Below are positions 1,569 through 2,810 of a stretch of DNA of 55,786 bases, one piece after another (position 1 is the stretch's first letter; each line of letters opens with the position of its first letter). The notes under the pieces were generated by a model. The model was given only the letters and a program-made list of their open reading frames with translations. It ran no database searches and was not told where the DNA came from. The position numbers and the translations under genes are program-made. This DNA comes from a bacterium (GTDB lineage: Bacteria > Cyanobacteriota > Vampirovibrionia > Gastranaerophilales > Gastranaerophilaceae): assembly GCA_017559905.1 (NCBI GenBank), contig JAFYQF010000011.1:1-55786 (forward strand), read 5' to 3'.

Positions 1569-1775
1569 ATGTATGACAAAGAATTTAATAAACCTTTAGC
1601 CTTTAACAGTATTAAAGACATTGGGAACTTAGGAAATATTTTTTATTACAATAAATTAAATAATTAATTAGACCAAGAAGTTGGCGACTTTTTGCGTGCA
1701 AATACTAATAACCCCCAATTATATTCTAATGCTTTAAGACATCAATATGTAAGTGCTTATTATAACATATTTTAA
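1569..1775 (+). pseudogene. Short gene interrupted by an in-frame stop
   Basis: A good ribosome-binding site (GGAGGAAAGCAA) precedes the ATG at 1569. The frame reads 32 codons, meets TAA at 1665-1667, then continues protein-like for another 35 codons (LDQEVGDFLRANTNNPQLYS, then ALRHQYVSAYY) to a second TAA at 1773. Both halves are in the same frame, so a single nonsense change in a gene of about 68 codons is the simplest reading. The downstream end falls inside the 35-bp repeat, so the original gene may have been longer. The family is unknown to me. Confidence 0.5.
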
Positions 1776-2213: not shown

Positions 2214-2606
2214 TGGAGACGAGGGGAGTCGAACCCCTGTCCAAAATGGATTGTAACTAACATCTACGTGTGTAGGTTTATATTCGCTCAACTGATTCAG
2301 GAATAAACCTAAACCCTATAAATCAGCCCTAGGTTTTTTATTAGGAAACTCTAAACCCTTTACGGTCGTCTTGATACGTCTACCGTCATCAACGTACTGC
2401 GGCTTGCATAATGGACCCGTAAAATCGGCAAGCTGGACTCTACGAGTAGCTAGTTACAAACTAAGCAACACGAGCATATGCTCTGTTGAAGTCTGCTTCA
2501 ATTACATTGTTAGCATTTAATTTAGTTGCTCGTTGATAACCGAGAACAGCGCTCGGACACGCAGTCAATCCCAACCGAAACATCCTGTCAAATCCAAAAC
2601 GTCCCC
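2214..2606 (-). ncRNA. ssrA: Transfer-messenger RNA (tmRNA)
   Basis: tmRNA rescues stalled ribosomes by acting first as an alanyl-tRNA and then as a short mRNA. The 5' end GGGGACGTTTTGGATTTGACA (first bases 2606 downward) is the standard tmRNA start. Its first seven bases pair with CGTCTCC at the 3' end (one G-U), giving the acceptor stem. The T arm AGGGG-TTCGACT-CCCCT is intact just before it. The base after the acceptor stem is A and the following DNA is GAT, so CCA is not encoded and must be added. The proteolysis tag frame is at 2461-2514. Length is about 393 nt, normal for a one-piece tmRNA. The promoter lies about 180 bases upstream, across a structured leader. Confidence 0.95.
2461..2514 (-). 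other. tmRNA proteolysis-tag reading frame
   Basis: The resume codon GCT follows the usual A-rich lead-in ACTAAATTAAAT. The frame encodes ANNVIEADFNRAYARVA and ends in TAG. The ANN start matches cyanobacterial tags, but the end (ARVA) departs from the usual LAA or VAA ending recognised by ClpXP. Confidence 0.88.
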
Positions 2607-2623
2607 ATAAGAATTGATTGTTT

Positions 2624-2753
2624 GGGTCCGTTTTAGCTCCTGTTGAGTTTTCTTCAAAAACTCTTACGTCGCTGATATTATGTTCACCTGCTTGTCTTTG
2701 TCTTCACAAAGCCAACCTGTGAACATCGGCTTACGCCTTTTCAAAACGTCCCC
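2624..2753 (-). ncRNA. Structured RNA leader between the ssrA promoter and tmRNA
   Basis: On the minus strand this 130-base stretch is closed by a long-range stem: GGGGACGTTTT (2753-2743) with AAAACGGACCC (2634-2624), six A-U/G-C pairs, a tandem G-A mismatch and three G-C pairs. Inside are a GGC-GUAA-GCC hairpin (2737-2728), an 8-bp stem AUGUUCAC/GUGAACAU (2726-2719 with 2687-2680) topped by CUUUGU-GAAG-ACAAAG (2711-2696), and a 7-bp hairpin GAGUUUU-UGAAG-AAAACUC (2663-2645). All pairings are perfect apart from the G-A tandem. It also contains a possible 20-codon frame (2664-2726) after AAAAGG. I do not recognise it as a known riboswitch or RNA class. It may be a processed 5' leader of pre-tmRNA or a separate small RNA. 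Confidence 0.6.
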
Positions 2754-2782
2754 ATATTTAATTTTGAAAGTTCTGTTCTTCC

Positions 2783-2810
2783 ATTATAACCGCTATTTTG
2801 GATTTTTCAA
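2783..2810 (-). promoter_or_regulatory. ssrA promoter
   Basis: TTGAAA (2810-2805), a 16-base spacer and a perfect TATAAT (2788-2783) on the minus strand. The expected start is near 2776, about 170 bases before mature tmRNA. No other good -10 box is seen closer to the tmRNA. Confidence 0.75.

Follow-up and report, generated by a model that had tools for sequence, protein, structure and literature searches.

The element between the ssrA promoter and the mature tmRNA of this genome is a copy of a previously undescribed structured repeat with a core of ~110 nt, which is scattered through the Gastranaerophilales gut bacteria. The element is clearly a real structured RNA, the fold of which has been kept by evolution. 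Its best explanation, with a probability of roughly 0.6, is a lineage-specific, MITE-like family of structured repeats, one copy of which lies at the 5' end of ssrA in the window—the whole analyzed stretch of 55,786 nt—and is flanked there by a direct repeat of 15 nt. Among the titles and abstracts listed in literature searches on repeats and structured RNAs of Gastranaerophilales and Melainabacteria, none describes the element. The features of the locus are collected in Table 1.

Table 1. Features of the ssrA locus and of the structured element in the window
Feature	Position	Strand	Basis or remark
Whole element, match of covariance model R1	2624..2753	minus	model search
Element core, match of core model R2	2744-2633	minus	model search
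P1 5' arm GGGGACGUUUU (strand a)	2743..2753	minus	identical to tmRNA 5' end
P1 3' arm AAAACGGACCC (strand b)	2624..2634	minus	complementary to strand a and to tmRNA 5' end
P2 hairpin GGC-GUAA-GCC	2728..2737	minus	predicted
P3 AUGUUCAC/GUGAACAU, inner UUG-G-CUUUG/CAAAG-A-CAA	2680..2726	minus	strong covariation
P4 AGC-GA-C / G-GA-GCU (tandem G.A) and hairpin GAGUUUU/AAAACUC	2635..2673	minus	covariation
tmRNA (ssrA), tag ANNVIEADFNRAYARVA*	2606-2214	minus	ARAGORN; RF00023, 110 bits
ssrA promoter, -35 hexamer TTGAAA	2805..2810	minus	same TTGAAA-16-TATAAT arrangement upstream of relatives' ssrA
ssrA promoter, -10 hexamer TATAAT	2783..2788	minus	sequence
Direct repeat copy 1, TATGGGGACGTTTTG, copy of tmRNA 5' end	2742..2756	minus	sequence match
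Direct repeat copy 2, spans mature tmRNA 5' end (start 2606)	2595..2609	minus	sequence match

Fold and covariation

The window copy features a closing stem, P1, around three inner parts, P2, P3, and P4. P1 is formed by GGG-GA-CGUUUU and AAAACG-GA-CCC and contains the tandem G.A that the initial annotation had pointed out. P3 comprises 8 bp plus inner helices of 3 and 5 bp, and P4 consists of AGC/GCU, a tandem G.A, and then a hairpin of 7 to 8 bp; the earlier description of the inner parts, three perfect stems of 6, 7, and 8 bp, roughly holds for P2, P3, and P4. The tandem G.A of the closing stem is peculiar to the window copy, its relatives carrying ordinary pairs of the GGGACG/CGUCCC type, and a conserved tandem G.A is present in P4. 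On the minus strand, positions 2753-2624 fold with -47.4 kcal/mol versus -25.1 +/- 3.3 kcal/mol in shuffled sequences (z of -6.8), a value reached in 0 of 200 shuffles. With its flanks, the minus-strand element has a folding z of -7.9, and the plus strand of the flanked stretch folds less well (z of -4.3). The covariance model R1, built from the window sequence and nine relatives, returns exactly 2624-2753, in agreement with the structured RNA that had been proposed for these positions. The shuffles together with the covariation described below rule out a chance fold, as had been claimed. A cmscan search of the 4227 families of Rfam 15, relaxed thresholds included, gives no match of the element to any family or known riboswitch aptamer class; this rules out a known Rfam family and bears out the earlier statement that no riboswitch class could be recognized.

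Among 10 copies from tmRNA leaders, 92.7% of the cells are paired and double-sided changes occur in 19 of 42 pairs, a level that 0 of 500 shuffles reach; slid versions of the same alignment yield at most four pairs with double changes. Because this structural alignment was padded and fitted by hand, the later sets of model matches are the better test. The 44 model matches show double changes in 35 of 42 pairs (286 cells versus 85 in shuffles), and the 67 copies outside tmRNA leaders, for the core alone, in 28 of 31 pairs (405 cells versus 108 shuffled and 43-77 slid)—both alignments being fitted to the covariance model and, hence, leaning toward its structure. In P3, double changes are found at 17 of 17 modeled pairs (helices 2-4) among the 67 copies, and P2 is tested little by covariation since its GC/GC pairs hardly vary. 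A subtype has G-C/C-G in place of the tandem G.A/A.G of P4, the two forms being exchanged en bloc (87 copies with the tandem and 33 with the replacement; few are mixed). The covariation of paired columns exceeds both the shuffled and the slid controls, as is expected of a structured RNA, and the compensatory changes among relatives, which the initial annotation had proposed as a check, are strong. The element carries a conserved G-U position on one strand; the counts of 57 G-U versus 35 A-C do not by themselves tell the strands apart.

Position in the ssrA leader

The element was correctly placed between the ssrA promoter and the mature tmRNA 5' end. The promoter, TTGAAA-16-TATAAT at 2810-2783 on the minus strand, is strong, and the transcription start predicted from it would be near 2776. 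The distance from the -10 box to the mature tmRNA end is 176 nt in the window versus about 28-32 nt in relatives free of the insert, in keeping with the claim that normal leaders are short. A transcription start between element and tmRNA, which had been named as an argument against a leader RNA, has no counterpart in the sequence: no promoter-like site was found between the two, and one weak site (9-of-12) lies inside the element. The description in the initial annotation lacked a direct repeat of 15 nt: the opening 15 nt, TATGGGGACGTTTTG (2756-2742), have an identical second copy over the mature tmRNA 5' end (2609-2595). Two sites in the window, versus zero expected, match the 14-letter pattern GGGGACGTTTTGRA, and in relatives of the same genus that lack the insert, TATGGGGACGTTTTG is present once. 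The tmRNA downstream of the direct repeat is left intact. A degenerate duplicate of the tmRNA is ruled out, as just the first 15 nt match and the remainder is the dispersed core.

The tmRNA leaders of most relatives are without the element. Scattered species have longer ssrA leaders with inserts, the shortest below 60 nt and the longest above 250 nt. Leaders clearly related to the window's element occur in genera g1, g2, g6, g7, and g56, and further ones in g8 and g54 come from the model search. The tmRNA copies of genus g6 have the duplicated strand a intact, and the matching 3' arm is mostly lost. The ssrA leaders of relatives also hold inserts unrelated to the element. One of these, type B, is a second structured insert of ~160 nt, which begins GGGACGTTTGCC, occurs in L036, L037, L040, L044, L045, L104, and L111, and is arranged in tandem in L040 and L044. 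Compensatory changes are seen at 9 of its 29 predicted pairs; it is found in other species of the window's genus, with full-length matches at ssrA (14 genus genomes). Three genomes of genus g11 (L106, L108, L109) have an ssrA leader insert of ~220 nt that contains a long and almost perfect hairpin. In addition, the contigs of many relatives stop within or just past the tmRNA 3' end, which suggests repeats or integrated elements there.

Dispersal and genomic contexts

Of 383 family genomes searched with the model built from tmRNA leaders, 193 contain the element, mostly away from tmRNA. With the core model, it is found in 89 of 146 genomes of an order-wide sample, often in tandem; the copy number rises to 24 per genome in genus g10, and the window's own genome holds a single copy. 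In a sample of the phylum (244 genomes, 108 genera), the element is confined to two families of a single order, one of them the window's own. When 84,980 species were scanned for an exact pattern, 78 contigs matched, mostly labeled Candidatus Gastranaerophilales or Melainabacteria, and the sole contig labeled Deltaproteobacteria gives no covariance-model match. With most copies at other loci, an RNA specific to the tmRNA leader is ruled out; on this point the initial annotation, which regarded the element as a tmRNA-leader RNA, has to be revised, as the same core lies at many unrelated loci. The element is also seen next to or between genes on the viral contigs L306 and L307 (IMG/VR). The mean identity of copies is 0.68 within a genome and 0.62 across genomes, and some pairs that share an operon are almost identical; because this excess is only modest, an old or slow spread fits better than active transposition.

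Copies usually sit directly behind stop codons, prophage operons included, or ahead of RNA genes, in one case before 16S rRNA and in some cases in tmRNA leaders. The genes ahead of them, read from protein ends, are presumably groEL, ssb, rpsF, rplC, rpsK, nrdJ, skp/ompH, and prophage tail genes. Copies abutting a gene 3' end are oriented 37 in sense versus 2 in antisense, a count that includes repeated orthologues (e.g. several groEL). In the high-copy genome G134, copies between same-strand genes run against the genes about as often as with them; universal sense orientation is thereby ruled out, and the sense bias is confined to gene-abutting copies. A consistent tie to functionally linked genes, as would be expected of a riboswitch, was not found among groEL, ssb, ribosomal-protein, nrdJ, prophage, rRNA, and tmRNA contexts. 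The conserved 3' end ACAGGAGC, which in some prophage operons is separated from the next start codon by just a few bases, could be a candidate ribosome-binding site there. In L353 of genome G134 (about 1594-1725, reverse strand), an array of the element is apparently located inside an open frame of 523 aa, so some copies may be translated.

The rpsK-rpsD gap of genus g6 measures 25-26 nt in three species and is occupied by the element in four; in most others, different sequence follows the stop codon directly. As regards target duplications, a 15-nt direct repeat is present at ssrA, and no clear one was seen in this gap. In sister species (L389-L409), the site immediately after the rpsK stop is taken by members of two or more further insert families, one beginning CGGATTTT and another carrying CGTCATTCC. 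Filled and empty orthologous sites exist at both the rpsK-rpsD gap and the ssrA leader. This turnover and the similarities among copies fit the spread and replacement of small, presumably mobile repeats.

The closing stem at tmRNA

The pairing of the flanking arms averages -15.0 kcal/mol at tmRNA versus -6.5 kcal/mol elsewhere and -6.1 kcal/mol for shuffled arms, the sites elsewhere including L164, a tmRNA copy whose first G is T. Because arms elsewhere average no better than shuffled ones, the closing stem is ruled out as a family-wide feature; complementary arms are nonetheless present in a few genuine non-tmRNA copies. The 5' arm at tmRNA is the host's own tmRNA 5' end, host-specific variants included—C-to-U in L140 and L151, UUUU-to-UCC in L166 and L168—and the 3' arm changes in step. 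Strand b, being complementary to both, has two possible partners, strand a and the mature tmRNA 5' end (strand c), and strand a can also pair with the tmRNA 3' strand (strand d). The pairings a:b, b:c, and a:d are mutually exclusive and are in competition in the ensembles predicted. For five species—five of eleven loci, the other six having been missed by the strand-b pattern—partition functions yield mixtures of a:b, b:c, and a:d that differ between species, and because pseudoknot-free programs handle tmRNA poorly, these ensembles show competition and not outcome. Minimum free energy folding as a means to decide among a:b, b:c, c:d, and a:d was dropped, its results being species-dependent and the pseudoknots of tmRNA lying outside the model.

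Comparison with known systems

ERIC/IRU, RUP, and Correia/NEMIS are MITE-like repeats of bacteria (reviewed in PMC2229807). The element resembles them in being about 100-200 bp long, non-coding, intergenic, presumably co-transcribed, folded, multi-copy, and lineage-restricted. However, most of these repeats form long stem-loops bounded by terminal inverted repeats, and target duplications are known for several, whereas the element combines a multi-branched core with conserved unpaired bases, lacks terminal repeats common to its copies, and is often found immediately behind a stop codon in sense orientation. The Rickettsia palindromic elements (RPE) set a precedent for small repeats within a tmRNA gene; according to that review, they inserted into the genes for tmRNA and RNase P RNA (Ogata 2002, cited in PMC2229807). 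Going by this citation, RPE are likewise small repeats that reached the tmRNA locus, but they are fused within RNA genes and lie in frame in protein genes, whereas the element is part of the leader and does not reach into the mature tmRNA. Intergenic repeats of Borrelia plasmids have an RNA fold kept by compensatory changes (PMC2674063) and in this respect are similar to the element; they belong to another lineage and form stem loops in contrast to its multi-branched fold, a distinction drawn by description and not by sequence. The precursor tmRNA of B. subtilis is reported to bind FMN, a precedent for metabolite sensing by a tmRNA precursor (PMC5876405). In both cases, the 5' part of a tmRNA precursor is proposed to affect maturation, but no Rfam match ties the element to the FMN riboswitch or any other class.

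Origin and possible functions

In Gastranaerophilales, the family of ~110-nt-core repeats appears to colonize intergenic DNA that is transcribed, such as the space directly behind stop codons, the leaders of rRNA and tmRNA, and prophage operons, and tandem arrays are frequent. Its most probable mode of spread is that of a non-autonomous, MITE-like element, which would be co-transcribed with its surroundings. The tmRNA precursor would then carry the element fold as an independent 5' domain, which RNase P should remove at the second GGGGACG, and the closing stem at tmRNA plausibly keeps the duplicated 5' strand off the tmRNA 3' acceptor strand. As expected of MITE-like repeats, the family is dispersed, multi-copy, short, and non-coding. 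The conserved unpaired bases and the multi-branched fold, which exceed what most MITE-like repeats have, speak against this assignment; terminal inverted repeats common to all copies were not found, strong arm pairing being the rule at tmRNA sites alone. The copies of genus g6, with strand a intact and the 3' arm mostly lost, are left unexplained by a protective closing stem.

The sense bias of 37:2 at gene ends, the conserved unpaired bases, and the occurrence in ribosomal-protein, groEL, ssb, rRNA, and tmRNA transcripts would also suit a general intercistronic regulatory RNA—acting, for example, in anti-polarity, mRNA stability, or RNase processing behind stop codons—that is kept by selection and not by mobility. 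This is unlikely, given that the presence per gene is sporadic among sister species and that the G134 copies between same-strand genes show no preferred direction. The same bias at gene ends, together with the conserved G-U position on one strand, argues against a fold acting as single-stranded DNA in transposition, REP- or IS200/605-like, and not as RNA; short dispersed hairpin repeats and tandem arrays are in line with such a role, which is nonetheless highly improbable.

As the 5' strand of the closing stem copies the tmRNA 5' end, a switch of tmRNA folding is conceivable. In such a cis-acting switch for tmRNA maturation, a ligand or protein bound to the core would decide between the pairings of strand b: with strand a, it forms the closing stem and leaves the tmRNA free to fold; with strand c, it forms a local hairpin over a linker of roughly 15 nt and blocks the acceptor stem. 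The b-a pairing is strong at the tested tmRNA copies outside genus g6 and not as a rule at other loci, strand a tracks the host variants in L140, L151, L166, and L168, the alternative pairings exclude one another and compete in predicted ensembles, and FMN binding by the B. subtilis tmRNA precursor reportedly promotes maturation (PMC5876405). However, the core occurs without the closing stem at dozens of unrelated loci, genus g6 retains strand a without a matching b, most relatives have no element at ssrA, and the partition functions, from pseudoknot-free folding poorly suited to tmRNA, are inconsistent between species, so that such a switch is improbable. A combination, in which a mobile structured RNA was captured at ssrA as a strand-exchange switch for ligand- or protein-dependent control of ribosome rescue, is more doubtful still. 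The strand arrangement is compatible with a regulatory switch as well as with a lock that ties up the duplicated strand protectively, and the g6 copies fit neither of them neatly.

The element adds an undescribed, strongly covarying structured repeat to a poorly studied gut lineage, in which it recurs in ribosomal-protein, chaperonin, rRNA, tmRNA, and prophage transcripts. A clean natural experiment is provided by sister species that differ in whether a given site carries it. If the copies at tmRNA do act as a switch, they would represent a rare case of control of ribosome rescue at the RNA level.
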